Origin: Microvirga terrae
GTDB lineage: Bacteria > Pseudomonadota > Alphaproteobacteria > Rhizobiales > Beijerinckiaceae
Direction of reading: 5' to 3'
Assembly: GCF_013307435.2 (NCBI RefSeq)
Contig: NZ_CP102845.1
Span: 2,365,001-2,429,000 of the forward strand
DNA length: 64,000 nt
Of this stretch, positions 8,841 through 43,725 are shown piece by piece. Under the pieces are notes generated by a model. The model was not told the origin of the DNA and ran no database searches. It saw only the letters and a program-made list of their open reading frames with translations. The translations under genes and the position numbers were made by a program. The first letter of the stretch is position 1. Every line of letters begins with the position of its first letter.

Positions 8841-9325
8841 TCATCCCTCGATCGCGACGATGGCTTCGATCTCGACCGTGATGTTGTTGGGCAGCGACCC
8901 GAAGCCCACGGCGGAGCGGGCGTGACGCCCGGCCTCTCCGAACACGGCCATCATCAGGTCGGAGCATCCATTGATCACCTTAGGGTGTTCGCCGAAATCG
9001 GGCGCCGCGTTCACCATGCCGAGGAGCTTCACCACGCGCTTGACCCGCGACAGGTCGCCCAGAGCGTCCTGCATGACGGCGAGCAGATTGATGCCCGTGA
9101 GCTTGGCGTGCTCATAGGCCTCTTCCGCGCCGACGTCGAGGCCGACCTTGCCGGTATGGAGATACCCGTTCGCTTCCTGTGGACCCTGGCCCGACAGGAA
9201 CAGGAGATTGCCTTCCTGGACATGCGTCACGAAATTGGCGATCGGGTTCGGAGCCTTGGGCAGCGCAATGCCAAGTTCCTTCAGGCGCTCGTAAGGGTTG
9301 GACGCAGTCAGATATTGCACTCGGT

Positions 9326-9329
<4 letters not shown>
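8841..9329 (-). CDS. RidA/YjgF/UK114-family protein (atypical, lacks the canonical active-site Arg)
   Basis: The 162-residue protein has the Rid fold hallmarks (LFLSGQGP, then SLPNNITVEIEAIVA at the C-terminus). RidA proteins hydrolyse enamine/imine products of PLP-dependent lyases. In E. coli RidA the Arg just before LPK near the C-terminus binds the substrate carboxylate. Here that position is Ser (GFGSLPNN), so classical 2-aminoacrylate deaminase activity is doubtful. The gene is the last of the minus-strand operon and overlaps the ATPase stop by four bases, so it is co-translated with the transporter. A role in handling a reactive intermediate made by the SelA-like enzyme is inferred from context. 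Confidence 0.85.
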
Positions 9330-10305
<976 letters not shown>

Positions 10306-10309
<4 letters not shown>

Positions 10310-11319
10310 AGATCCTCGTGCCTCCAGCATCGGCTCAGATGGGACGGGCCCGCGGCCATGAGCGGCGGCGCCTCTTCGCATTGCGGGATCCGGTAGGAGC
10401 AGCGCGGAGCGAAACTGCATCCCGGAGGAAGCGCCGTCACGGGCGGCACGTTGCCCGGGATCGGGTTGAGGCGCAGCCGCTCGCCGGCGGCGCCCCGGTC
10501 GCGCGAGGCGTTCGGGATGCAGGCGAGAAGACCGCGTGTGTAGGGATGCTTCTGGTGCGCGAAGAGGCTCGCGACCGGGCTCTTCTCGACCACCCGGCCG
10601 GTATACATCACCACGACGTCATGGGCGATTTCCGCCACCACGCCGAGATTGTGCGTGATGAACAGGATGCTCATGCCGATCTCGCGCTGCAGCCTGCGGA
10701 GCAGATCGAGGATCTGCGCCTGGATGGTCACGTCGAGGGCCGTGGTCGGCTCGTCGGCGATCAGGAGGTTGGGATTGCACGACAGGGCGAGCGCGATCAT
10801 GACGCGCTGACGCATGCCGCCCGACATCTGGTGCGGATACTCGTCGAGCCTGCGGTCGGCCGCCGGAATCTCGACGAGTTCCAGCATCCGCCTGGCCCGT
10901 TGACGGGCCTCCGCCATCGAGAGCGGCTCGTGCAGCCGGATCATCTCGACGATTTGGTCGCCGACCGTGTAGAGCGGGTTGAGGCTCGTCATCGGCTCCT
11001 GGAAGATCATGGCGATCTCCCGGCCGCGGATCGCCCGCATCTTGCGCTCCGGAAGCGCCGCGACGTCGATCACCTGGCCCTGGCTCGTGCGGTAGAGGAT
11101 GTTGCCGCCCACGATCCGTCCGGGCGACGACAGAAGGCGCATGATCGACAGGCTGGTGACGGATTTCCCCGAGCCGGATTCCCCGACGACCGCGAGGGTC
11201 TCGCCGCGCCTCACGTCGAAGCTCACGCCATCGACCGACTTGGCGACCCGGCTGCCGAGCTCGAAGTGAGTGCGCAGGTCCGAGACCCTGAGCACGATAT
11301 CGTCGGGAAGCTCCGTCAT
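10306..11319 (-). CDS. ABC transporter ATPase, DppD-like, with C-terminal cysteine motif
   Basis: The 337-residue ATPase has Walker [11 protein letters not shown]-loop [11 protein letters not shown], signature MSGGMRQR, Walker [12 protein letters not shown] and [11 protein letters not shown] (Asn replaces Asp after the switch His, a common DppD variant). The C-terminal domain has CSFAPRC, YRIPQC and a last Cys in LSRCW, the four-cysteine pattern of the oligo-HPY region. The start is the ATG at 11319, which overlaps the amidohydrolase stop by four bases. An upstream in-frame ATG at 11349 lies inside the amidohydrolase gene and is less likely. Confidence 0.92.
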
Positions 11320-32060: not shown

Positions 32061-33050
32061 TCAGTTCATGGCGATGGACGACTTGCCGATGATCTCGGCC
32101 CAGCGGGCGGATTCGGCCTTCATCATGGCGGCGAATTCCTCCGGGCTGTTGCCGATCGGCTCCGCGCCTTCGTTCTCGAGCCGCTCGCGCACCACGCCGT
32201 TCTTGATCGTCTCGACCGTTGCGGTCCGGATCTTGTCGGCGATGTCCTTGGGCGTTCCCTTCGGCACCGCGAAGCCGTACCAGGCGGTGGCCTCGTAGGC
32301 CGGCCAGCCGCTCTCGGCCACGGAGGGCACGTCCGGGAATTTCTTGGCCCGGGTCTTCGACGTCACGGCGAGGACGCGGGCGTCATGGCTCTCGATCAGG
32401 CCGAGGACGGACGGGACCGTGGTGACCATGAAGTCCATGCGGCCGCCGAGGAAGTCGTTCAGCGCCGGGCCGGCCCCCTTGTAGGGCACGTGGACCGCGT
32501 CGAACTTGGCCTCCTGGGCCAGGAGCACCGTGGCGAGGTGGCTCGCCGAGCCGTTGCCGGCGGACCCGTAGGTCAGCTTGCCCGGGTTCTTCTGGCCGTA
32601 CTCGATCAGCTCCTTGACCGTCTTGTACGGGGAGTTCTTCGGCACGACCACGACCAGCGGGGCGGCGGTGATCAGGGTCAGGGGATCGAAGGCGGTGAGC
32701 GGATCGATCTTGACGCTCTTGAACAGGTGCGGGTTGACCACCATCGGGCCCTGGTTGGCCATCAGGACCGTGTAGCCGTCCGGGGCGGCGCTGGCGGCCT
32801 GCTGCGTGGCGATGTTGCCGCCGGCGGATCCGTTGTTCTCGACGGTCAGGTTCTGCCCCAGCTTCTCGCTCACTCCCTGGGCGACGAGGCGCGCGATGGC
32901 GTCCGTGCCGCCGCCGGCCGCATAGGGGACGACGAGCTTCATGGGACGGGTCGGGAAGGCGTCCTGCGCGAAGGCGCCGCTAAAGGGCAGCGTGATCGTG
33001 GCCAGCGTGGCCAGGGCGGCGGAGCAGACGAGGCGGCGTGTGGGTGTCAT
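32061..33050 (-). CDS. Tripartite tricarboxylate transporter substrate-binding protein (TctC/Bug)
   Basis: The 329-residue protein has a signal peptide (cleavage after GAFAQ) and the Bug-family pattern: PMKLVVPYAAGGGTDAIARL, GSAGGNIATQQAASAAPDGYT, TYGSAGNGSASHLATVLL and AWYGFAVPKGTP. Bug proteins bind small carboxylates in the periplasm. No TctA or TctB membrane subunits are present in the window, which is usual for expanded Bug families. Start ATG 33050 has AGAGGAGAAAA before it. Its first 71 bases overlap the end of the upstream PrpF-like gene in another frame. Confidence 0.92.
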   Translation of the reverse strand: MTPTRRLVCSAALATLATITLPFSGAFAQDAFPTRPMKLVVPYAAGGGTDAIARLVAQGVSEKLGQNLTVENNGSAGGNIATQQAASAAPDGYTVLMANQGPMVVNPHLFKSVKIDPLTAFDPLTLITAAPLVVVVPKNSPYKTVKELIEYGQKNPGKLTYGSAGNGSASHLATVLLAQEAKFDAVHVPYKGAGPALNDFLGGRMDFMVTTVPSVLGLIESHDARVLAVTSKTRAKKFPDVPSVAESGWPAYEATAWYGFAVPKGTPKDIADKIRTATVETIKNGVVRERLENEGAEPIGNSPEEFAAMMKAESARWAEIIGKSSIAMN

Positions 33051-34188
33051 GAGCGTTTTCTCCTCTTTGTTGTAGACCTTCCGGGGGCGCAAGGACAGCG
33101 CTTGCCGGGACGATGATCCTGCCTTCGAAGATGCGGCGGGCGGTGCGGACGAGGCTCGCCCGCGCGATCCGGCCGGACGGGTCGATGCTCAGATCGACCT
33201 CGATGCGGCCGCTCGGGTGCTCGACCGTCACCAGGGACGAGAGGGCGGGCGCCGCAAGATCGTGCGCGACGCTGCCCGGCAGCCGGCAGGCGGCGGCGAC
33301 GCAGAGGGCGCCCGTGACCGCGTGGCCCTTGTGGCAGCGGCTCGCGTTCATGAGGTAGCGCGACGTGATCGTGCCGCCGTGGCGGGCTCGGGACAGGATG
33401 CCGACCTTGGGCACGACGCTGCCGGACACGTCGCCGAGGCCCATGCGCAGGCCGGCCTCGCGGCGGATCGTTTCGAGGCGGGCGAGCAGGTCGGCGTCCG
33501 CCTCGATCGCGTCCGGCGTCTCGTCGCCGGAAAGGCCGAGATCGCCCGCCGACAGGAGCACCATGGGCATCGCATAATCGACGAGGGTCACCGGAGTGTT
33601 GTCGATGAACTCGCGCTCCTGCCCGGTCGGCAGGAGCGCGCCGGTCTTGGACCCGAGGGCGTCGAGGAAGGTGAGCCGGACCGGGGCGGCGGTGCCGGGC
33701 ACGCCGTCGATCACCGTCTCGCCCTCGTATTCCACGGCCCCATGAGGTGTCTGGACCACGGCCTCGACGGTGGTGGCCGTGTTGCGGTTGAAGATCCTGA
33801 CCAGGGTCTCGCCCGCCTGCGCCGGCACCAGGCCGGCCTCGATGGCGAAGGGGCCGACCGCAGACAGCATGTTGCCGCAGTTCGGGCTGAAATCGACGAG
33901 CTCCCGGTCGGTGGCCACCTGGGCGAACAGGTAATCCACGTCGGCGTCCGGCCGGGACCCCGGGGCGATGATCGCCACCTTGCTGGTCATCGGGTTGCCG
34001 CCGCCGATCCCGTTCACCTGGAGCCCATGGGGGGATCCCATGGCGGCGAGGAGGAAGCGGTCGCGCTCGGCCGGGTTGGCCGGCAGGTCCGCTTCCAGGA
34101 AGAACGGCCCCCGCGAGGTCCCGCCCCGCATGAGCACGCAGGGGACTTCGAGGGCGTTCTTCTTCGATGTGGCGAACGGAAGTGACAC
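32980..34188 (-). CDS. PrpF-family isomerase (4-oxalomesaconate tautomerase GalD-like)
   Basis: The protein has 402 residues from GTG 34188, the start I prefer because PrpF/GalD proteins begin a few residues before the IPCVLMRGGTSRGPFF motif. An in-frame TTG at 34230 is also possible. Other family features are NGIGGGNPMTSKVAII, FSPNCGNMLSAVGPFAIE with the active Cys, and NASRCHKGHAVTGA with a second conserved Cys. The family moves double bonds in unsaturated di- and tricarboxylates. The domain ends at about EGRIIVPAS; another 36 residues of unrelated sequence follow and run into the tctC gene, overlapping it by 71 bases. A TctC neighbour supports a carboxylate substrate. Confidence 0.85.
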   Translation of the reverse strand: MSLPFATSKKNALEVPCVLMRGGTSRGPFFLEADLPANPAERDRFLLAAMGSPHGLQVNGIGGGNPMTSKVAIIAPGSRPDADVDYLFAQVATDRELVDFSPNCGNMLSAVGPFAIEAGLVPAQAGETLVRIFNRNTATTVEAVVQTPHGAVEYEGETVIDGVPGTAAPVRLTFLDALGSKTGALLPTGQEREFIDNTPVTLVDYAMPMVLLSAGDLGLSGDETPDAIEADADLLARLETIRREAGLRMGLGDVSGSVVPKVGILSRARHGGTITSRYLMNASRCHKGHAVTGALCVAAACRLPGSVAHDLAAPALSSLVTVEHPSGRIEVDLSIDPSGRIARASLVRTARRIFEGRIIVPASAVLAPPEGLQQRGENAHDTHTPPRLLRRPGHAGHDHAAL

Positions 34189-34266
34189 AGCGAGATCCGG
34201 GTTTGTGGGTTGGCCATCCACACATCTCAAATCCGGAAACTGCTGTGAAATGCAAAGATCGGTGCT

Positions 34267-34289
34267 ATTGATGCTCCATGAGCATCAAT
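34267..34289. promoter_or_regulatory. Perfect palindrome covering the lysR start codon
   Basis: ATTGATGCTC (34267-34276) and GAGCATCAAT (34280-34289) are perfect ten-base arms around CAT. The lysR ATG is at 34278-34280, so the palindrome straddles it. It could be an operator for autoregulation or an mRNA hairpin that hides the start codon. Confidence 0.6.
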
Positions 34290-35180
34290 TTCGAAGCCTT
34301 GGACCTACGGGCCTTCGTGGCGGTCGTCGATCTCGAAGGATTCCACCGCGCCGCCGAGGCGCTGAACCTGTCCCAGCCGGCGCTCAGCCGCCGGATCCAG
34401 AGGCTCGAGGCCGCCGTCGGGGCGGCGCTCCTCGAGCGCACCACGCGGCGGGTGGCGCTCACGAACGTCGGGAGGGAATTCCTGCCGCTGGTGCGGCGCA
34501 TGCTCGACGAGTTCGATTCGAGCCTGTTCGCCATGCGGGAGATCGGCCAGCAGCGGGGCGGGCAGATCACGCTCGCCTGCGTGCCCACGGCGGCGTTCTA
34601 CTTCCTGCCCGGGGTCATCGCCCGCTTCAAGGAGCAGTACCCGAACATCCGGTTCCGGATCCTCGACCTGTCGGCCAACGAGGGGCTGGAGAGCGTGGCC
34701 CGCGGCGAGGTGGAGTTCGGCATCAACCTCCTGGGCGGGTCCGATCCGGAGCTGTCCTTCGAGCCCCTGCTGGAGGACCCCTTCGTGCTCGCCTGCCGGC
34801 GCGACCATCCCCTGGCGGCCAGGCAGACCCTGACCTGGTCCGACCTGGAAGGGCAGCCCCTCGTGGCGGTGAGCCGGAGCAGCGGCAACCGCATCCTGCT
34901 CGACGCCGCCCTGGTGCGGGCCGGCGTGCGCCTGAGCTGGTCCTACGAGGTGACCCACCTGTCCACGTCGCTCGGGCTGGTCGAGGCCGGGCTCGGCATC
35001 TCGGTGCTGCCGCGCCTCGCCACCCCGCAGGCCGAGCATCCGATCATCGTGACGCGGGCCATCGGGGACCCGGAGGTGTCGCGCACCATCGGGGTCGTGA
35101 GGCGCCGCGGCGCACGCCTGGCGCCCGCCGCCGAACGCTTTCTCGAAATGCTCCTCGGGACCTGGCGCAGCCCCGGCTAA
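34278..35180 (+). CDS. LysR-family transcriptional regulator
   Basis: The 300-residue protein has an N-terminal winged helix-turn-helix (LRAFVAVVDLEGFHRAAEAL, LSQPALSRRIQRLEAAVG, LLERTTRRVALT) and an effector domain (ITLACVPTAAFYFLPGVIARFKEQYP). It is divergent from the PrpF-like/TctC pair with about 90 bases between starts. It most likely regulates the pair in response to their carboxylate substrate. The coding start is embedded in a perfect inverted repeat. Confidence 0.92.
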   Translation: MSINFEALDLRAFVAVVDLEGFHRAAEALNLSQPALSRRIQRLEAAVGAALLERTTRRVALTNVGREFLPLVRRMLDEFDSSLFAMREIGQQRGGQITLACVPTAAFYFLPGVIARFKEQYPNIRFRILDLSANEGLESVARGEVEFGINLLGGSDPELSFEPLLEDPFVLACRRDHPLAARQTLTWSDLEGQPLVAVSRSSGNRILLDAALVRAGVRLSWSYEVTHLSTSLGLVEAGLGISVLPRLATPQAEHPIIVTRAIGDPEVSRTIGVVRRRGARLAPAAERFLEMLLGTWRSPG

Positions 35181-35723: not shown

Positions 35724-35739
35724 GTTCTGTAAAACGAAC
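35724..35739. promoter_or_regulatory. GTTC-N8-GAAC inverted repeat, site 1
   Basis: GTTCTGTAAAACGAAC lies about 220 bases upstream of the cassette start. It has the same arms and spacing as site 2. Confidence 0.45.
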
Positions 35740-35862: not shown

Positions 35863-35878
35863 GTTCTAAAAAAAGAAC
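35863..35878. promoter_or_regulatory. GTTC-N8-GAAC inverted repeat, site 2
   Basis: GTTCTAAAAAAAGAAC, extended to TGTTCT and AGAACA arms (35862-35879), lies about 82 bases before the GTG start of the binding protein. The flanking AAAAAGAACATTCC is repeated at 35805-35818 as a half-site. Confidence 0.5.
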
Positions 35879-35960
35879 ATTCCCGTTGATTTTCCGGACG
35901 TTCCGTCGCGATAATTCCTGCATCGATCGGCTCGATATCCAGCCGGGAAGGGGATTGACC

Positions 35961-37628
35961 GTGACACTGAATTCGCGCTTCGGAACCAAAGCGGGCCTTG
36001 CGGCCCTGGTGGGAGCCACGTTCCTGACCGGCGCGGCGCTCTGGAGCGCCGGCGCCCTCGCGGCGGGCGCCGAAGGTGCGCCCGCGAAGGGCGGCACGCT
36101 GGTCTATCTCGAGCAGCAGGCCCACACCAACCTGTATCCGCCGGCGGGCGGCTTCTATCCCAATGGCGGGATCCTCAACCAGATCACCGACAAGCTGACC
36201 TACCAGAACCCCAAGACCCTGGAGATCGAACCCTGGATCGCCGAATCGTGGACGGTGAACGCCGACGCGACGGAATACACCTTCAAGATCCGCCCGGGCG
36301 TGACCTTCTCAGACGGAACGCCGCTCGATGCAGCCGCCGTGGCCAAGAACTACGACACGTTCGGACGCGGCAACAAGGACCTCAAGCTGCCGGTCTCGGA
36401 GGTCATCAACAACTACGACCGTAGCGAGGTCATCGACCCGCAGACGGTGAAGTTCACGTTCAAGAAGCCGTCGCCCGGCTTCCTGCAGGGCACGTCCGTG
36501 ATCGGCTCCGGCCTCGTATCCCTGAAGACTCTCGCGCTGCCTTATGAAGCGCTCGGCGACGCCACCAAGATCATCGGGTCGGGCCCGTTCGTGGTCGCGA
36601 GCGAAACGCTCGGACGCGAGCTCACCCTGAAGGTGCGCGCGGACTACAAATGGGGCCCGGCGAAGCTGGAGCACCAGGGCCGTGCCTATCTCGACGAGAT
36701 CAAGTACATCGTCACCCCCGAGGACAGCGTGCGCATCGGCGCCCTTCTGGCCGGCCAGGCCGACGTGATCCGCCAGATCCAGGCCTATGACGAGAAGCAG
36801 GTCGAGGACGAGGGCTACCTGATCTACGCGCCCTCGACCCGCGGCGTGAACAACTCCGTCGTGTTCCGTCCCGACAACCCGCTCGTCGCCGACGTCCGGG
36901 TCCGCCGCGGGCTCCTGCACGCCACCAACACGGACGAGATCGTCTCGACCCTGTTCTCGGCCAATTACCCGAAGGCGACCTCGATCATCGCCAAGACGGC
37001 GTCGGGCTATGTCGATCTCTCACAGAGGCTGTCCTACGACCTCGAGAAAGCCAAGGCCCTGCTCGACGAGGCCGGCTGGAAGGTCGGGGCGAACGGACGG
37101 CGCCAGAAGGACGGACAGGTTCTCGAACTCTCCGCCTACGAGTCCCTGCCGCAGCCGCAGAACAAGGAGACGCTGCAGCTCGTCGCGCAGCAATGGGAGA
37201 AGATCGGCGTGAAGCTGAACGTGCTCACGGCCGACTCGGGCAGCGCGGTCGTGAACAATCTCGATCCCGCCAAGGCGCCGGTCTCGCCCGCCATGGTCGG
37301 CCGGGCCGATCCCGACGTGATCAAGAGCCAGTACTATCCGACCAACCGCAACGTGCTGCTGCAGAAGGGCGGCAACAGCGACAAGGTGCAGGCCTTCGTC
37401 GACGAGAAGCTGAACCAGCTCCTCGACCGGCTCGCCTCCGAGCCGGACCGCGCCAAGCGCCTCGCGGTGGCGGGCGACGTGCAGAACTACGTGGTCGATC
37501 AGGCCTACGCCATTCCGATCTTCGAGGAGCCGCAGGCCTTCGCGGCCGCCCCTTACGTGAAGGGCGTGTCCTTCGAGGCGGTTGGCCGCCCCAGCTTCTA
37601 CAACACCTGGCTGGCGCCCCGCCGCTGA
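35961..37628 (+). CDS. ABC importer substrate-binding protein, peptide/nickel class (KPN_01854-like family)
   Basis: The protein has 555 residues from GTG 35961, with GGGAAGGGG as ribosome-binding site and a signal peptide ending at about ALAAGAEG. It is a family-5 binding protein but of a distinct branch, with YLEQQAHTNLYPPAGGFYPNGGILNQITDKL near the N-terminus and FKIRPGVTFSDGTPLDAAAVAKNYDTFGRG. I associate this branch with the named but uncharacterised KPN_01854 family that travels with a luciferase-like monooxygenase and two CMD-domain proteins, exactly as here. It is first in an operon of importer and oxidation genes. The ligand is unknown. Confidence 0.88.
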   Translation: MTLNSRFGTKAGLAALVGATFLTGAALWSAGALAAGAEGAPAKGGTLVYLEQQAHTNLYPPAGGFYPNGGILNQITDKLTYQNPKTLEIEPWIAESWTVNADATEYTFKIRPGVTFSDGTPLDAAAVAKNYDTFGRGNKDLKLPVSEVINNYDRSEVIDPQTVKFTFKKPSPGFLQGTSVIGSGLVSLKTLALPYEALGDATKIIGSGPFVVASETLGRELTLKVRADYKWGPAKLEHQGRAYLDEIKYIVTPEDSVRIGALLAGQADVIRQIQAYDEKQVEDEGYLIYAPSTRGVNNSVVFRPDNPLVADVRVRRGLLHATNTDEIVSTLFSANYPKATSIIAKTASGYVDLSQRLSYDLEKAKALLDEAGWKVGANGRRQKDGQVLELSAYESLPQPQNKETLQLVAQQWEKIGVKLNVLTADSGSAVVNNLDPAKAPVSPAMVGRADPDVIKSQYYPTNRNVLLQKGGNSDKVQAFVDEKLNQLLDRLASEPDRAKRLAVAGDVQNYVVDQAYAIPIFEEPQAFAAAPYVKGVSFEAVGRPSFYNTWLAPRR

Positions 37629-37709
37629 CGAACCCGAGGTCCGGCCGGGCCGTGCAACCGAGCGCGACCCGGCGGGCCGATCTCATCCACCACCCAGACG
37701 GGATCTCTC

Positions 37710-38654
37710 ATGTCGCGATACGTGATCGGAAGGATCGGGCAGGCGGCCCTCGTGCTGTGGGCTGCGTTCACCGTCTCCTTCATCCTGCTGCAGGCCCTGC
37801 CCGGCGACGCCATCCTGATCAAGTTCCTCAATCCCGAACTCGGCCTCGGGCCTGAGCAGATCGCTGACATCCGGGCCGCCTACGCGGCCGACAGTCCGCT
37901 GCCGGTGCAGTATCTCCACACGGTGGCGAATTTCCTCACCGGGAATTTCGGCTACTCGATCCATGCGGGCGTTCCTGTGGGCGATCTGATCCTCGCCAAC
38001 CTGCCGCAGACCCTGTGGCTGGCGTCGCTCGGCTTTCTCCTGTCGGTCATCGTGGCGGTCGCGCTCGCGGCGCTCTCGGCCCTGGCGCCGTTCTCGTGGC
38101 TGCGCGCGTTCGTCCAGTCGATCCCGGCGCTCTTCATCTCCACGCCGGTGTTCTGGCTCGGGATCCTGCTGATCCAGATCTTCTCGTTCCAGCTCAGGCT
38201 CATCCCGGTCATCAATCCCGGGCCCTGGCAGGCGCTGGTCCTGCCCGTGCTGACGCTCGCCGTCCCGATCTCGGCGCCGCTCGCCCAGATCCTCATGCGC
38301 AACATCGACCACGTGCTCACGGAGCCCTTCGTGGCGGTCGCCCGCGCCAAGGGCGCGTCCCATCGCTGGGTCCTGTGGAAGCACGTGGCGAAGAACGCCG
38401 TCCTTCCGACGCTCACCATCGGGGGCATCCTGTTCGGGGAGCTTCTGGCCGGCGCGGTCGTCACCGAGGCGGTGTTCGGCCTCAACGGCCTCGGCGGGCT
38501 CACGCAGCGCTCCGTCAACGACCAGGACATCGCGGTGCTCCAGGCGATCGTGGTGTTCTCGGCGGCGGCCTTCGTGCTCATCAATCTCACGGTAGACCTG
38601 CTCTACCCCGTCTTCGATCCGCGCCTCAGGGTGAAACAGGGAGCCGTCGCATGA
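37710..38654 (+). CDS. ABC importer permease, DppB-like
   Basis: The 314-residue protein has six membrane helices, an N-terminal VIGRIGQAALVLWAAFTVSFILL helix followed by LPGDAI, the GNFGYSIHAG motif, and an EAA loop (EPFVAVARAKGASHRWVLWKHVAKNAVLP). It ends with DPRLRVKQ, and its stop overlaps the next permease start by four bases. It lies 81 bases after the binding-protein gene; that gap is G+C-rich with partial dyad symmetry but without a perfect hairpin. Confidence 0.9.
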   Translation: MSRYVIGRIGQAALVLWAAFTVSFILLQALPGDAILIKFLNPELGLGPEQIADIRAAYAADSPLPVQYLHTVANFLTGNFGYSIHAGVPVGDLILANLPQTLWLASLGFLLSVIVAVALAALSALAPFSWLRAFVQSIPALFISTPVFWLGILLIQIFSFQLRLIPVINPGPWQALVLPVLTLAVPISAPLAQILMRNIDHVLTEPFVAVARAKGASHRWVLWKHVAKNAVLPTLTIGGILFGELLAGAVVTEAVFGLNGLGGLTQRSVNDQDIAVLQAIVVFSAAAFVLINLTVDLLYPVFDPRLRVKQGAVA

Positions 38655-39553
38655 CCGGCCTGAACACGATCGGACGCAGCCTCCTGCGCGACGAGGCGGA
38701 TGTCCTCGACAGCCCTTCGACGGGCGCGTCTTCGGGCGCCGGTTGGCTGAAGGCCGTCCGGAGCATCCAGCCCGGCCTCGTCCTGGCCTGGTTCGTCATG
38801 GCGGTCGTCGTCCTGTGGGCTCTGTTCCCGCAATGGTTCACTGGCTACAACCCGACCGTCGGCGTGGCCCGCCAGCAGCTTCGCGCGCCGAGCGCCGAGC
38901 ATTGGCTCGGCACCGACGCGCTGGGCCGCGATCTCCTCGCGCGCATCATCCACGGGGCCGGCAACTCGCTGTCTGGAGCGCTCGTGGCCGTGGGCGTCGG
39001 CCTTCTGGTGGGCACGACGCTCGGCATCGTGGCCGGATCGGCGCGCGGCCGGATCGACGGCGCCATCATGCGCGGCGTCGACGTGCTCCTGTCGATCCCG
39101 CAGCTGCTCCTGTCGCTCAGCATCGTCATCCTGCTCGGCTTCGGCATCGTCAACGCGGCCATCGCGGTCGGCATCACGTCCATCGCCAGCTTCGCGCGGC
39201 TCGCCCGCTCCGAGGTGGTGCGGGTGCGCGCCAGCGACTACGTCGAGGCGGCGTTCGGCAGCGGCGGAACCTTCGGCCGCGTGCTGCTGCGCCACATCCT
39301 ACCGAACTCGCTGACCTCGGTGATCGCCTTCGCGGCCCTGCAGCTCGGCTGGGCCATCCTGACCATCTCCACCCTGGGCTTCCTCGGCTACGGGGCGCCG
39401 CCGCCCACACCGGAATGGGGCCTGCTGATCGCCGAGGGGCGCAACTACCTGGCGCGCGCCTGGTGGCTGACGACGGTGCCGGGCATCGTGGTGATCCTCG
39501 TCGTCCTGTCGGCGAACCGCATCAGCCAGTCCTTCGGAAAGGCCCGCCCATGA
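38651..39553 (+). CDS. ABC importer permease, DppC-like
   Basis: The 300-residue permease has a long hydrophilic N-terminus of about 45 residues, then a membrane helix, LGTDALGRDLLARIIHGAGNSL, an EAA loop (SDYVEAAFGSGGTFGRVLLRHILPN), and LGFLGYGAPPPTPEWG. The start overlaps the DppB-like stop (ATGA), and its stop overlaps the ATPase start the same way. The three genes are therefore translationally coupled. Confidence 0.9.
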   Translation: MTGLNTIGRSLLRDEADVLDSPSTGASSGAGWLKAVRSIQPGLVLAWFVMAVVVLWALFPQWFTGYNPTVGVARQQLRAPSAEHWLGTDALGRDLLARIIHGAGNSLSGALVAVGVGLLVGTTLGIVAGSARGRIDGAIMRGVDVLLSIPQLLLSLSIVILLGFGIVNAAIAVGITSIASFARLARSEVVRVRASDYVEAAFGSGGTFGRVLLRHILPNSLTSVIAFAALQLGWAILTISTLGFLGYGAPPPTPEWGLLIAEGRNYLARAWWLTTVPGIVVILVVLSANRISQSFGKARP

Positions 39554-41220
39554 CGAGCGCCATCTCCATCAGGCCCACGGCCGCGGACGTCGCGAACGTG
39601 CCGGTTCTCGAGATCAGCGATCTCGCGGTCGGCTATCGCGGCCCCGAGGGCTTCCAGCGCGTCGTCCACGAGGTGTCGCTGCGCGTTCGCCCCGGCGAGG
39701 TCGTGGCGCTCGTCGGTGAATCGGGATCCGGCAAGACCACCACGGCGCAGGCGGTGATCGGGCTCCTGGCCGAGAACGGCCGCCTGGAAGGCGGCGCGAT
39801 CCGGCTCAACGGAACCGACATCGCGGGCTGGTCGCAGAAGCGGCTCGACACCATCCGCGGCCAGAAGATCAGCCTGATCCCGCAGGATCCGACGAGCTCG
39901 CTCAATCCCGTCAAGACCATCGGGGCTCAGGTAGCCGAGGTGCTGGAGATCCACCGGCAGGGAAGCCGGGCCGAGATCGACGCTCGGGTGATCGAGCTTC
40001 TGGCGCGGGTCGGCCTGTCCCAGCCCGAGCTGCGCGCGAAGCAGTATCCGCACGAACTCTCGGGCGGGATGCGCCAGCGCGTGCTGATCGCCATCGCGAT
40101 TGCCCTGCGTCCGGCGCTCATCATCGCCGACGAGCCCACCAGCGCCCTCGACGTGACGGTGCAGAAGCGCATCCTCGACCTGATCGACGAGCTGCGCCGG
40201 GAATACGGCACGGCGGTCCTCCTGGTGACGCACGACCTGGGCGTGGCGGCCGACCGGGCGAACCACATCGTCGTGCTCAAGGGCGGGCGCATCCAGGAGC
40301 AGGGCCCGACCGCCGAAGTGCTCGCCGCGCCGCGCAGCGAGTATACGCGCAAGCTCCTGGCCGACGCGCCCTCGCTCGGCAAGACGCGTTCGGTCGCCCG
40401 GTCGAAGCCCGTGCATATCGGGGCGCGCCGGGATGCCATCGTGGTCGAGAACCTCGTGCAGGACTTCGCCATCGGCGGCCGAGAGGTTTTCCGTGCGCTG
40501 GCCGGCGTGTCCTTCAGGGTCAGGCGGGGCACGACGCACGCCATCGTGGGCGAGTCCGGCTCGGGCAAGACGACGACCGCGCGCAGCATCGTGGGCTTCC
40601 AGAAGCCGAGTGCGGGCCGCATCCTGGTGGACGGGATCGATGTGACGTCCCTGCGCGGGGAGAACCTGCGCCGCTTCCGCAAGACGATCCAGCTCGTCTA
40701 CCAGAACCCGTTCGCGTCCCTCGATCCGCGGCAGACGATCTTCCAGATCGTCGAGGAGCCGCTCCTGAACTTCGACCCCGGGCCGCGCGAGGACAGGGCA
40801 CGCAAGGTCGAGGCCATCCTCGAGCGCGTCGGCCTGCCGCCGTCGGTCCTGACGCGCCGGCCCCATGCGCTCTCGGGCGGGCAGCGGCAGCGCGTCGCCA
40901 TCGCGCGCGCCCTGGTGCTCGACCCGCAGGTGCTGGTGCTCGACGAGGCGGTGTCGGCCCTCGACGTGACCGTGCAGGCGCAGATCCTGTCGCTCCTCGA
41001 CGAGCTGCAGCAGGCGCTCGGGCTGACCTACCTTTTCATCTCCCACGATCTCGCGGTGGTCCGCCAGATCTCCGACACGGTCTCGGTCCTGCACAACGGC
41101 CGCCTGGTCGATGGCGGTGCGGTCGAGGACGTGTTCCAGCGCCCGGGCAGCGCCTACACGCGCGAGCTCATCGAGGCGATCCCCGGCCAGCGCAATCCCG
41201 GCCCGCACTCATTCTCTTAG
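39550..41220 (+). CDS. ABC importer ATPase, fused double-domain (DppD-DppF type)
   Basis: The 556-residue protein holds two complete ATPase domains. Domain 1 (to about residue 275) has Walker A GESGSGKTTT, signature LSGGMRQR and Walker B IIADEPTSALD. Domain 2 has Walker A GESGSGKTTT, signature LSGGQRQR and Walker B VLDEAVSALD with ISHDLAVVRQI. The usual two subunits are thus one chain, as in GsiA. Neither half keeps the C-terminal four-cysteine region. In the second domain the DEPTS motif is DEAVS, a frequent DppF variant. Confidence 0.93.
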   Translation: MTSAISIRPTAADVANVPVLEISDLAVGYRGPEGFQRVVHEVSLRVRPGEVVALVGESGSGKTTTAQAVIGLLAENGRLEGGAIRLNGTDIAGWSQKRLDTIRGQKISLIPQDPTSSLNPVKTIGAQVAEVLEIHRQGSRAEIDARVIELLARVGLSQPELRAKQYPHELSGGMRQRVLIAIAIALRPALIIADEPTSALDVTVQKRILDLIDELRREYGTAVLLVTHDLGVAADRANHIVVLKGGRIQEQGPTAEVLAAPRSEYTRKLLADAPSLGKTRSVARSKPVHIGARRDAIVVENLVQDFAIGGREVFRALAGVSFRVRRGTTHAIVGESGSGKTTTARSIVGFQKPSAGRILVDGIDVTSLRGENLRRFRKTIQLVYQNPFASLDPRQTIFQIVEEPLLNFDPGPREDRARKVEAILERVGLPPSVLTRRPHALSGGQRQRVAIARALVLDPQVLVLDEAVSALDVTVQAQILSLLDELQQALGLTYLFISHDLAVVRQISDTVSVLHNGRLVDGGAVEDVFQRPGSAYTRELIEAIPGQRNPGPHSFS

Positions 41221-41238
41221 GACAAGTGGAGCAAAGCC

Positions 41239-42285
41239 ATGACAGCATCCTCGAAGCGCAAGAGGCTCGGGTTCTTCACCCGGCTTCTCGACGACGCGAG
41301 CGCCGGCGAGCGCTACCGCCTCGCGGCCGAGCAGATCATCCATGCGGAGCGCAACGGGTTCGATTCCGCCTGGGTGGCGCAGCACCATTTCCACGCCGCG
41401 GAGGGCGGGCTTCCGGCCCCGCTGGTGTTCCTGTCCCACGTGGCGGCGCGCACCTCGACGATCCGCCTCGGCACGGGCATCATCACCCTGCCGCTCGAGA
41501 ACCCGATCCGGGTCGCCGAGGACGCGGTGGTGCTCGACCTCCTGTCCGGCGGACGCCTCGAAATCGGCGTCGGCACGGGCGGCACCCCGTCGTCCTTCAC
41601 GGCCTTCGGGCTCGAGAGCGCGAGCCGGTCGGAGATCTACGACCGGCACCTCGCGGTGCTGCGCAACGCCTGGACGGGCGGGAGCCTCGAGGGCGGGGAT
41701 TCGCTCTATCCGGTGGCGCCCGATCTCGACGACCGGGTCTGGCAGGCGACCTTCTCGGCCGGCGGCGGCATCCGGGCGGGCAAGGCCGGGGACGGGCTCA
41801 TGCTGTCGCGCACGCAGCCCCGGCCGAAGGACGCGCCGCACGCCACGCTGCCCGATCTCCAGCATCCGATCATCGACGCCTATCTCGAGGCGCTGCCCGA
41901 CGGCCGCGAGCCGCGCATCGTGGCGTCGCGCTCGCTCTTCGTGGCCGACAGCCGCGAGGAGGCCCTGCGCCTCGCCGAGAAGGGGCTGCGCCGCGTGGTG
42001 GCCGACTTCGCCGCCAAGGGGCACGTGATCCCGGGCGACAGCCTCGCCGACATCCTCACGGCCCTCGACACCCATGTGGGCACCCCCGAGGACGTGCTCG
42101 AATCGTTGAGCCGCGACACCACCCTGCCGCGGGTGACCGACCTGGTGTTCCAGGTCCATTCGGTCGATCCGCCGCACGAGGACATCCTGCGCTCGATCGA
42201 GCTGATCGCCAGCGACGTGGCGCCGGCGCTGGGCTGGCAATCGCCTTTGTCGAAGCCCGAGAAGCGCGTCGCCCTGGTGCGCTGA
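41239..42285 (+). CDS. Luciferase-like FMN-dependent monooxygenase (KPN_01858-like family)
   Basis: The 348-residue bacterial-luciferase-like TIM-barrel protein starts at ATG 41239, 18 bases after the ATPase. Markers are GFDSAWVAQHHFH near residue 40, TSTIRLGTGIITLPLENPIRVAEDAVVLDLLSGGRLEIGVGTGG, and RIVASRSLFVADS. Family members use reduced FMN and oxygen to oxidise substrates such as alkanesulfonates, thioethers, aldehydes and chelators. I recognise the branch as the one given the family name KPN_01858, whose reaction is not established. Position right after the importer says that it acts on the imported compound. No flavin reductase gene is beside it, so reduced FMN must come from elsewhere. 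Confidence 0.88.
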   Translation: MTASSKRKRLGFFTRLLDDASAGERYRLAAEQIIHAERNGFDSAWVAQHHFHAAEGGLPAPLVFLSHVAARTSTIRLGTGIITLPLENPIRVAEDAVVLDLLSGGRLEIGVGTGGTPSSFTAFGLESASRSEIYDRHLAVLRNAWTGGSLEGGDSLYPVAPDLDDRVWQATFSAGGGIRAGKAGDGLMLSRTQPRPKDAPHATLPDLQHPIIDAYLEALPDGREPRIVASRSLFVADSREEALRLAEKGLRRVVADFAAKGHVIPGDSLADILTALDTHVGTPEDVLESLSRDTTLPRVTDLVFQVHSVDPPHEDILRSIELIASDVAPALGWQSPLSKPEKRVALVR

Positions 42286-42352
42286 ACCCCGCGCTAGCGC
42301 ATCGTGCGGCCCTCCGGGTCCGCGACGAACGATGCGCCAGCCAAGAGAAGAA

Positions 42353-42398
42353 GCATCGGATGGATCCCAAAAGTGGTTTCCACTTTTGGGTCCGATGC
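42353..42398. repeat. Long hairpin repeat inside the cassette (GCATCGGA type)
   Basis: CCCAAAAGTGG (42366-42376) pairs with CCACTTTTGGG (42380-42390), and outer arms GCATCGGA (42353-42360) and TCCGATGC (42391-42398) extend it with a five-base bulge. It lies between the monooxygenase stop and the start of the first CMD-domain gene. The CGATGC outer arms resemble the hairpin at 20842. It is probably a dispersed repeat and could attenuate transcription. Confidence 0.65.
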
Positions 42399-42434
42399 TC
42401 TCCCATCATCCATCCACCGGACCGTGAGACACCC

Positions 42435-43100
42435 ATGAGCACCACCCCGACGGACGTCATCGATCACCTGGCCGGGATCCGGCCGGGATCCAGCCTCGAC
42501 CGCTTGCGCGATCAGCGGCCGCAGGCGCGCGAGAACGCGCAGAAGAGCTATCTCGCCCTGTTCGAGCCGGAGGTTCCCGGCACCGTCACGGCGCTCGAGC
42601 GCTACGCGCTCGCCACCTTCGTGGCCGGGCTCCACCGCCAGCCCCATGTGGGTGATTTCTACGCCGCCTCCCTGCAGACGCTCGGGCATCCGCGGCTCTC
42701 CGAGATCATCGACGCGGAGATCGCCCGCGGGGCCGTGGAAGGTCCCTACGGGCGCTATCCGGAAGGCCCGCATTCCGTCGAGGACAAGGACGGGCCGGTC
42801 TACCGGGTTTCGGCCGACAACCGGGAGAGCCTGGGCGCGCGCCTGTCGGCCGGCCTGGAGCACGCGCATCTCCTCGTGTTCCACCCGCGCGACGCGAATC
42901 CCGCCGCCCTGCAGGCGCTTCTCGATGCCGGCTGGTCGACCACCGACATCGTGACCCTGTCGCAGCTCGTGGCCTTCCTGTCGTTCCAGATCCGCGTCGT
43001 GGCGGGCCTGCGGGCGCTCGCGGGCGCGTCGGCGGTCGAGAGCACGGATACGGAATACACGCAGATCTTCACGGGCGTCCTGGCGTCCGGCGCCGTTTGA
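42435..43100 (+). CDS. CMD-domain protein, Avi_7170-like family (no CxxC)
   Basis: The 221-residue protein has the alpha-helical carboxymuconolactone-decarboxylase/AhpD-type fold pattern (ALERYALATFVAGLHRQPHVGDFY and WSTTDIVTLSQLVAFLSFQIRVVAGL). It contains no cysteine at all, so it cannot work as an AhpD-like peroxidase. Its neighbour supplies the CxxC version. I associate it with the uncharacterised Avi_7170 family. It follows the monooxygenase after a hairpin-containing gap of 149 bases and precedes the second CMD gene by 13 bases. The start is ATG 42435; a longer frame upstream is a shadow of the monooxygenase gene. Confidence 0.82.
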   Translation: MSTTPTDVIDHLAGIRPGSSLDRLRDQRPQARENAQKSYLALFEPEVPGTVTALERYALATFVAGLHRQPHVGDFYAASLQTLGHPRLSEIIDAEIARGAVEGPYGRYPEGPHSVEDKDGPVYRVSADNRESLGARLSAGLEHAHLLVFHPRDANPAALQALLDAGWSTTDIVTLSQLVAFLSFQIRVVAGLRALAGASAVESTDTEYTQIFTGVLASGAV

Positions 43101-43113
43101 GAGGGGGCCATCC

Positions 43114-43725
43114 ATGACCGAGACAACGCTGTCGCATCCCGACAACCGGGAGCCCGTCGCCTTCACCCAGGACGAGCTCGGCTGGCTGCCGTGGCTCGAG
43201 CCGTTCCCGGCCGACCAGCTCACCGAGCGGCACTGGGCCGGGCTCGTGGACGCCTCGCGGGCGAAGTCGCCGTACTTCCTCCTGCTCGCCCGCGATCCGG
43301 ACGTGCTGCAGGCCCGCACCAAGACCGACAAGGACATCTTCTACAACACGCGCGACGGCCTGCCCCGCGCCGAGCGCGAGCTCGCCGCCACGGCCACGTC
43401 CCGCTCCAACGGCTGCATCTTCTGCGCGTCCGTGCATTCGCGCTTCGCCACCCAGTACTCGAAGCGCGGCGCCGACATCCAGCGCCTGCTCGACGAGGGC
43501 GTGGAGGCGGACATCGACCCGCGCTGGAACGCCATCGTCGAGGCGTCCGTGGCGTTGACCGATACGCCGATCGCGTTCGGCGAGCGGCAGATCGGGGCCC
43601 TGCGCAATGCCGGCCTCGACGACGGCGAGATCATCGACGTGATCAACGGCGCGGCCTTCTTCAACTGGGCCAACCGGCTCATGCTGTCGCTCGGCGAGCC
43701 GACCCCGCCGGCGGCGAAGCAATAG
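43114..43725 (+). CDS. Alkylhydroperoxidase-domain protein, AhpD-like, Avi_7169-like family (CxxC)
   Basis: The 203-residue AhpD-fold protein has Cys101-Ile-Phe-Cys104-(x3)-His108 in the order of the AhpD active site (CxxCxxxH). It could therefore carry out thiol-based peroxide reduction or another disulfide chemistry. It has the typical helices with WNAIVEASVALTDTPIAFGERQIGALRNAGLDDGEIIDVI. I associate it with the named but uncharacterised Avi_7169 family that accompanies the Avi_7170 and KPN_01858 types. It closes the cassette and is followed by a paired palindromic repeat. Confidence 0.85.
   Translation: MTETTLSHPDNREPVAFTQDELGWLPWLEPFPADQLTERHWAGLVDASRAKSPYFLLLARDPDVLQARTKTDKDIFYNTRDGLPRAERELAATATSRSNGCIFCASVHSRFATQYSKRGADIQRLLDEGVEADIDPRWNAIVEASVALTDTPIAFGERQIGALRNAGLDDGEIIDVINGAAFFNWANRLMLSLGEPTPPAAKQ

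Follow-up and report, generated by a model that had tools for sequence, protein, structure and literature searches.

A shared sulfur-gene operator and conserved synteny point to organosulfur scavenging by an importer, luciferase-like monooxygenase and CMD/AhpD operon of Microvirga terrae

What would a bacterium gain from placing a peptide-type importer in one unit with a putatively flavin mononucleotide (FMN)-dependent luciferase-like monooxygenase (LLM), a cysteine-free CMD protein and a CxxC AhpD-like protein? This question is raised by seven collinear plus-strand genes at 35961-43725 of a 64,000-nucleotide stretch of Microvirga terrae contig NZ_CP102845.1 (positions 2,365,001 to 2,429,000), referred to here as the window. 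A preliminary description of the window had considered an organosulfur compound a fair guess for the substrate. Based on the evidence below, we regard the unit as an organosulfur-scavenging operon with a probability of roughly 0.9, and its upstream region suggests that sulfur shortage probably induces it. Flavin monooxygenase operons for sulfur scavenging are a known kind; the new part is the CMD/AhpD pair as a partner enzyme. In the open-access literature we found no paper assigning a function to the operon, and KPN_01858 is mentioned there once in passing.

Profile scores place four of the seven products in NCBIfam families that bear only locus-tag names. The substrate-binding protein (SBP) of family 5, encoded at 35961-37628 with a GTG start, reached 876 bits with TIGR04028 (cut-off 468.5) and matched PF00496. 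The LLM (41239-42285) reached 562.3 bits with TIGR04027 (cut-off 412.9), the CMD protein (42435-43100) 219.2 bits with TIGR04029 (cut-off 100.75), and the AhpD-like protein (43114-43725) 280.7 bits with TIGR04030 (cut-off 233.15), in addition to a PF02627 match. Two ABC permeases of the Dpp/Nik type (37710-38654 and 38651-39553, both PF00528) and a fused double ATPase with two PF00005 stretches (39550-41220) lie between the SBP and the LLM. For each of the four models a single genomic locus exceeded the cut-off, and the operon matches the whole NCBIfam cluster TIGR04027/04028/04029/04030 (KPN_01858, KPN_01854, Avi_7170 and Avi_7169) in fixed order. The preliminary description had predicted exactly these four families, and all seven genes that it listed are present, although it counted them as six. 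The NCBIfam descriptions give no function for the four families, and the assignment to a sulfur regulon is new here. We found the families in Alpha-, Beta- and Gammaproteobacteria and in Actinomycetota, and the LLM is 93% identical to its Microvirga sesbaniae counterpart.

Two palindromes of the GTTCT-N6-AGAAC type precede the SBP gene. The distal operator GTTCTGTAAAACGAAC (35724-35739) has one mismatch to this pattern, and the proximal operator GTTCTAAAAAAAGAAC (35863-35878), 139 bp from the distal one, is a perfect palindrome. The perfect pattern occurs 20 times genome-wide, compared with 2 occurrences of the reversed pattern, and in 7 of the 20 sites at least five of the six spacer bases are A or T. 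From these seven AT-rich sites and two weaker ones we derived the form GTTCKNWWWWNMGAAC, for which the operon's own two sites were among the sources; it is found 10 times in the 6.13 Mb genome, whereas 0.22 would be expected from composition and the reversed control is found once. Two of these copies, at 35724 and 35863, are those upstream of the operon, and seven of the eight others lie upstream of sulfur genes (distances to start codons are from our own gene caller, and further cys genes were read by eye). The seven sites are 43 bp from a cysJ-like gene (569 bits, cut-off 668) with cysI, 54 bp from cysH-cysD, 423 bp from the binding protein gene of a sulfate importer, 45 bp from metY, 347 bp from a MetQ-family gene, 33 bp from metZ, and 130 bp from a PALP-family, cysK-like gene, the last also being 277 bp from a divergent Sulf_transp (YeeE-type) gene. 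Since the control site of the operon is common to sulfate-assimilation and sulfur-amino-acid genes, we assign the operon to a sulfur regulon, and this is the strongest single result of the analysis.

Every one of the 17 Microvirga loci had a GTTC-N8-GAAC palindrome no more than 500 bp upstream of its SBP gene, and in 12 loci there were two copies 128-142 bp apart. When one mismatch was allowed, GTTCT-N6-AGAAC gave 7 matches against 0.8 expected, five of them away from the operon promoter. An operator with a 7-base spacer was rejected (11 matches, 13 expected), and the 13 perfect sites with a less AT-rich spacer were regarded as chance; when six of the 13 were inspected (L131, L133-L137), five lay inside called genes and one was 6 bp from a short called gene. 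The GTTCKNWWWWNMGAAC form gives Microvirga a sulfur-regulon operator, and with it comes a candidate regulator of the regulon that includes the operon: an Lrp/AsnC-type protein (L128:6503-6961, minus strand), whose gene separates the cysJ-like gene from cysH and is flanked on either side by the sulfur operator. SahR and SamR were considered as regulators and set aside; in the accessible part of PMC4239095, SahR sites are given as 20-bp palindromes and SamR as confined to Xanthomonadales.

The gene order was compared at 80 LLM loci, which are the best-scoring 80 of 358 matches and come from named genomes. CMD and AhpD follow the LLM directly in 75 of the 80, so the synteny that had been called conserved does extend beyond the source strain. 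Among these 75 loci, a transporter of like type was complete in 58, partial in three and absent in 14, one of the 14 (L047) being cut by a contig end. Among 398 Pseudomonadota genomes the LLM was above cut-off in 16 and the CMD protein in 19, and the two genes adjoin in 15 of the 16 LLM genomes (the exception is G317); about 0.8 genomes with both would be expected under independence. TIGR04029 was above cut-off in two of 346 Actinomycetota genomes, of which one, G398, is a centre genome that had been selected for having this family.

A second line of evidence comes from Corynebacterium glutamicum, which alone among 14 control genomes was above cut-off for TIGR04028, TIGR04029 and TIGR04030. 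These three matches presumably correspond to cg2678-74, which is annotated as a peptide-type periplasmic subunit, permease, duplicated ATPase and putative carboxymuconolactone decarboxylase and is placed in the regulon of McbR, a repressor of sulfur metabolism (PMC2580772 and PMC2807442, in their accessible parts). The likeness to the present operon thus seems to cover the peptide-type SBP, permease, duplicated ATPase, CMD/AhpD component and sulfur regulon. McbR membership is published for C. glutamicum, and we infer that it bears on the Microvirga operon as well. Together with the operator common to cys and met genes, it upholds the organosulfur guess of the preliminary description. No Corynebacterium name was found among the best 120 of 1717 CMD matches. 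A weaker hint concerns Klebsiella, in which KPN_01858 and TauC are reported among the proteins rising under iron limitation (PMC7194016, accessible part).

To understand the CMD/AhpD pair, its motifs and its partners were compared across genomes. The AhpD-like protein carries E89-x11-C101-x2-C104-x3-H108, which we take to be the AhpD motif, and all 75 unfused sequences compared had kept it; of 74 CMD sequences, 73 were without cysteine. No Pfam family, PF02627 included, matched the TIGR04029 CMD protein, nor does it have the AhpD motif, and its profile aligned with the solved AhpD 6k40 over the C-terminal third only (2.6e-5). In all six LLM-bearing genomes of family f49, CMD and AhpD form one protein of 363-378 residues by our own gene calls. 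The fusion at the f49 locus L084 is 94-95% identical to Pectobacterium proteins, and named CMD-AhpD fusions occur, among the best 120 of 956 matches, in Pectobacterium, Dickeya, Erwinia, Pantoea, Serratia and others. That enterobacteria naturally fuse the two is the strongest indication that both proteins work as one complex, and the earlier hint of a heteromeric enzyme, drawn from the pairing of a CxxC and a cysteine-free protein, has gained support from it.

The pair also occurs behind other oxidoreductases. In nine of fourteen loci with other TIGR04029-like matches, a protein of about 490 residues stands beside the pair (one gene away in L103). By Pfam, the proteins of L098, L099 and L101 resemble flavin adenine dinucleotide (FAD)-dependent monooxygenases or oxidoreductases; four more share the N-terminus by eye, and two were judged by length alone. 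Of the five remaining loci, L100 carries a BAAT-type hydrolase and L104 an amine-oxidase-like FAD enzyme, and the neighbours in L109-L111 are unassigned. An importer with a family-3 binding protein of the polar-amino-acid type accompanies the pair in L105, and L106 is similar. At loci that lack the family-5 transporter, a Liv-type importer is found beside the LLM-CMD-AhpD trio on the same strand in L038, L048, L070 and L097 (HMM-tested in L048), one gene away in L068, and convergent downstream in L021 and L032. The CMD/AhpD pair is hence a module behind different flavin enzymes, with amino-acid- or peptide-type importers, and the choice of Dpp-, Liv- and polar-amino-acid-type importers near its loci suggests an amino-acid-like cargo.

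Genes of sulfur-type metabolism join the unit in several relatives; one example of each kind was tested with hidden Markov models (HMM) and the remainder were assigned by similarity. An MsuE-like FMN reductase starts 20-32 bp after the AhpD match in L005, L010 (207 bits, cut-off 212.5), L014 and L018 and overlaps the AhpD end by 4 bp in L112, and a 37-42% identical protein lies 0.9-1.1 kb further on in L007, L008, L015 and L019. The two Arthrobacter loci encode NtaA/DmoA-type monooxygenases or rhodanese-like proteins within 4 kb (in L050 on the opposite strand), as do Neomegalonema, Methylocapsa, L032 and L112. L048 and L077 have DszC/SfnB-like proteins, that of L048 scoring below both cut-offs. 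OsmC-like and Glyoxalase_3 proteins are encoded in Acidovorax, Delftia, Variovorax and Alsobacter, and L089 has an M20 amidohydrolase. Over 95 loci, 64 accessory genes lay within 4 kb of the core (716 kb scanned) and 2 at 4-8 kb (482 kb scanned), and 37 of the loci had at least one. What matters here is the recurrence of such genes in separate phyla.

Based on these results, we propose a route in which the SBP, both permeases and the ATPase would import an amino-acid- or peptide-like organosulfur compound, and the LLM, using FMNH2 and O2, would oxygenate it and break a C-S bond. As there is no FMN reductase among the seven genes, FMNH2 must come from elsewhere in the cell. The cysteine-free CMD protein and the CxxC protein would act as one enzyme, probably a hetero-oligomer. 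Its substrate would be the sulfenic acid set free by the LLM, or a different S-oxidised or peroxidic intermediate, and its product a thiol usable for cysteine and methionine synthesis. We consider this explanation probable as a whole, that is, import, oxygenation, C-S cleavage, reduction by the pair and membership of the sulfur regulon taken together. Its most specific form, in which an amino-acid-like thioether undergoes oxidative C-S cleavage and CMD/AhpD reduces the released sulfur, is put forward tentatively and at somewhat less than even odds. A further generalization seems doubtful at present: the pair may be an undescribed hetero-oligomeric enzyme, either a sulfenic-acid reductase or a redox enzyme that releases sulfur from carbon, and may take the second step after both the TIGR04027 LLMs and the unrelated family of about 490 residues. 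If true, organosulfur compounds would in general be turned into thiols by an oxygenate-then-reduce route. Four families known by locus tag only gain a testable role in organosulfur acquisition under sulfur limitation, and the cysteine-free CMD protein beside AhpD gains a specific hypothesis.

The same setting could also be read as sulfonate-type sulfur scavenging, in which an SsuD/MsuD-like LLM releases sulfite and CMD/AhpD handles an aldehyde or peroxide by-product. The MsuE-like FMN reductases behind the trio in Microvirga relatives and L112 would suit this reading, as would the sulfite reductase under the same operator and the SsuA- or SsuB-like proteins of L039, L055, L064 and L077, all of which are below cut-offs. 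By score, however, the LLM is not of this kind, as the SsuD model (TIGR03565) is absent from its best 25 of 28 families and SfnG reaches 24.9 bits (cut-off 383). The importer is of peptide type rather than Ssu type in the 58 loci that have it complete, and a CxxC thiol-redox enzyme, rhodanese and M20 amidohydrolase suit thiol-level chemistry better, so that we consider a sulfonate route unlikely. A role for CMD/AhpD as a protective peroxidase against peroxides leaking from the LLM, and not as a pathway step, would be compatible with a sulfur function and is rather improbable, though somewhat less so than the sulfonate route. It draws on the AhpD motif of the CxxC protein and on OsmC-like genes, of another organic-hydroperoxide family, near the trio in 16 of 80 loci. 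In addition, PMC11266056 (accessible part) regards the C. glutamicum protein cg2674 as AhpD and reports, citing Hong et al., a higher NADH/NAD+ ratio when it is deleted. Against a purely protective role stand the adjacency of CMD to the LLM in nearly all LLM genomes and the occurrence of such pairs next to an unrelated FAD enzyme in other genomes. A plain peroxidase would also need no cysteine-free partner, which is kept in 75 of the 80 loci. The operon's CxxC protein shares the full motif and PF02627 with the AhpD alkylhydroperoxidase family and differs from it by this fixed partner, and in the loci studied the pair is tied to flavin monooxygenases and sulfur genes.

A more direct proposal for the LLM comes from the Klebsiella homologue PCX02514. 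Its structure, PDB 8K74, is the closest solved chain (2.9e-129; 207 of 323 residues, 64%, are identical), and the protein is said to cleave poly(acrylic acid) at a very low rate, with no flavin added (PMC11354265, accessible part). The preliminary description had held that no substrate or product was established, which is nearly right, this one paper being the exception in what it claims. Lower polymer weight, docking and point mutants are reported in its favour, and Arg10, Arg125, Ser186 and Arg187 of PCX02514 correspond to R15, R130, S190 and R191 here, whereas its His253 position is Phe. These Arg and Ser residues, mutated in the homologue and kept here, give a hint of a carboxylate-bearing ligand. 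The reported kcat is 0.00214 per s with NADPH, FMN and FMNH2 are said not to work, and the main text of PMC11354265 does not contain the terms knock, operon, deletion, sulfur or gene cluster. Considering that a long polymer would hardly reach an enzyme located in the cytosol behind a peptide-type importer, and that the operator is one of sulfur genes, the natural role of the LLM family is probably another than poly(acrylic acid) cleavage, which is also the least likely of the functions weighed here for this LLM. Nearly as improbable is the import of nickel or a metallophore, with the enzymes processing the metallophore. The SBP and permeases do match NikABC-, Opp- and staphylopine-type (CntA, CntC) models as well as solved NikA/CntA chains, but these scores stay below the curated cut-offs (157.5 bits against 393 for the SBP with the NikA model TIGR02294), in contrast to the TIGR04028 score of the SBP. 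The double ATPase is above the NikD and NikE cut-offs, but also above several others; no nickel gene is found among the three annotated flanking genes, and the operator is common to sulfur genes.

Several observations weigh against organosulfur scavenging by such an operon, and against parts of the proposed route. CMD and AhpD are both missing in five of the 80 LLM loci (L030, L039, L040, L053 and L061), four of them in Bradyrhizobium. Outside Microvirga the palindrome was found in one of 40 loci, that of Alsobacter (L055). One of the eight GTTCKNWWWWNMGAAC sites outside the operon is odd, being 113 bp upstream of an acetate-CoA ligase gene (L129:8959, gene 9072-11012), and for three of the seven sulfur sites the distance to the sulfur gene is as large as 130-423 bp. 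Some of the seven also face other divergent genes: the cysH-cysD site an Lrp/AsnC gene at 138 bp, the sulfate importer site a 1-Cys peroxiredoxin at 265 bp, and the MetQ site a gene for an 883-residue protein at 177 bp. The best MsuE match in the own genome has 25.6 bits, which is none of note, and the accessory-gene count is descriptive and partly circular, because its reference proteins were chosen from the same neighbourhoods. The C. glutamicum genome gave no match to TIGR04027 at 1e-30, and the oxygenation there would have to fall to a different enzyme. Under sulfur starvation the transcription of cg2678-74 is reported to be lower in a cysR mutant, an effect that seems indirect because it is described as absent in strains without active McbR and SsuR. 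Its ABC genes are also reported to rise at pH 6 and, as a further difference from the Microvirga operon, to be under the heme regulator HrrA (PMC9491836, accessible part). Within the pair, the CMD and AhpD-like profiles align over 62 C-terminal columns (HHalign probability 8.6%, E 0.0039); as the alignment covers the C-terminal part only at so low a probability, the kinship of the CMD protein with AhpD is likely but not strong.

Among the known systems closest to the operon of probable organosulfur scavenging are the yxe and ytm/cmo genes of Bacillus subtilis, whose YxeK and CmoJ are of the NtaA/DmoA type. The LLM belongs to another family (TIGR03860, 24.2 bits, cut-off 279.7), the importer is Dpp-type, and no N-acetyltransferase is among the seven genes. 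We know of no counterpart of the CMD/AhpD pair in yxe or cmo. Some relatives of the operon resemble the B. subtilis systems further in adding an M20 amidohydrolase and NtaA/DmoA-type enzymes. According to the accessible parts of PMC9706529 and PMC10863075, the Bacillus systems, which act on S-(2-succino)cysteine and S-alkylcysteine through YxeK, CmoO and CmoJ, share with the operon a flavin monooxygenase, C-S cleavage (here as proposed) and a role in supplying sulfur, and yxe also an ABC importer (PMC9706529). In S-alkylcysteine salvage, CmoJ is reported to yield a sulfenic acid that is then reduced (PMC10863075). The alkanesulfonate and sulfone operons offer a second comparison. The ssu, msu and sfn operons are controlled by sulfur limitation and combine an ABC importer with an LLM and an FMN reductase, and in some Microvirga an MsuE-like reductase joins the present unit. 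The operon differs from them in an LLM that is not SsuD or SfnG by score, in the importer type and in the additional CMD/AhpD pair.

Within the operon, the SBP and first permease genes are separated by 81 bp, and the junctions of permease 1 with permease 2 and of permease 2 with the ATPase gene are overlaps of 4 bp each. The gaps that follow are 18 bp (ATPase-LLM), 149 bp (LLM-CMD) and 13 bp (CMD-AhpD). Directly behind the proximal operator, a candidate sigma-70-like promoter, TTGATT-18-GATAAT, is present on the plus strand at 35886-35915 as a consensus match only; the search gave 1 observed against 0.3 expected in the region. The LLM-CMD gap contains a perfect hairpin, CCAAAAGTGG-TTT-CCACTTTTGG, at 42367-42389, which is a single copy in the window with up to 3 mismatches and was not found in the other stretches of the own genome examined. 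Upstream of the operon, a unit at 32061-35177 encodes a Bug/Tct-type binding protein, a PrpF-like protein (named by sight) and a LysR regulator, and no link between this unit and the operon was seen.

Some relatives depart from the common arrangement. In Bradyrhizobium L039, L040 and L053 the importer next to the LLM is Dpp-type but not the same one, and an amidohydrolase and an SsuA-like protein, both tested in L039, are also present. In L070 a 564-residue frame was considered as a natural LLM-CMD fusion and rejected; since its middle is unlike either protein, an assembly frameshift is likelier. L094, L095 and L096 have two tandem LLM genes, 36-39% identical to the LLM of the window, near an NtaA/DmoA-like monooxygenase, and this arrangement resembles another two-oxygenase cluster. 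The nine loci with the protein of about 490 residues are L098, L099, L101-L103 and L105-L108, and the CMD/AhpD pair is fused in L101, L102, L107 and L108. In L104 (6616-9144), a protein like the Glyoxalase_3 reference and an FAD enzyme like L-pipecolate/sarcosine oxidase precede the pair, which makes this a third type of oxidoreductase with the CMD/AhpD module.

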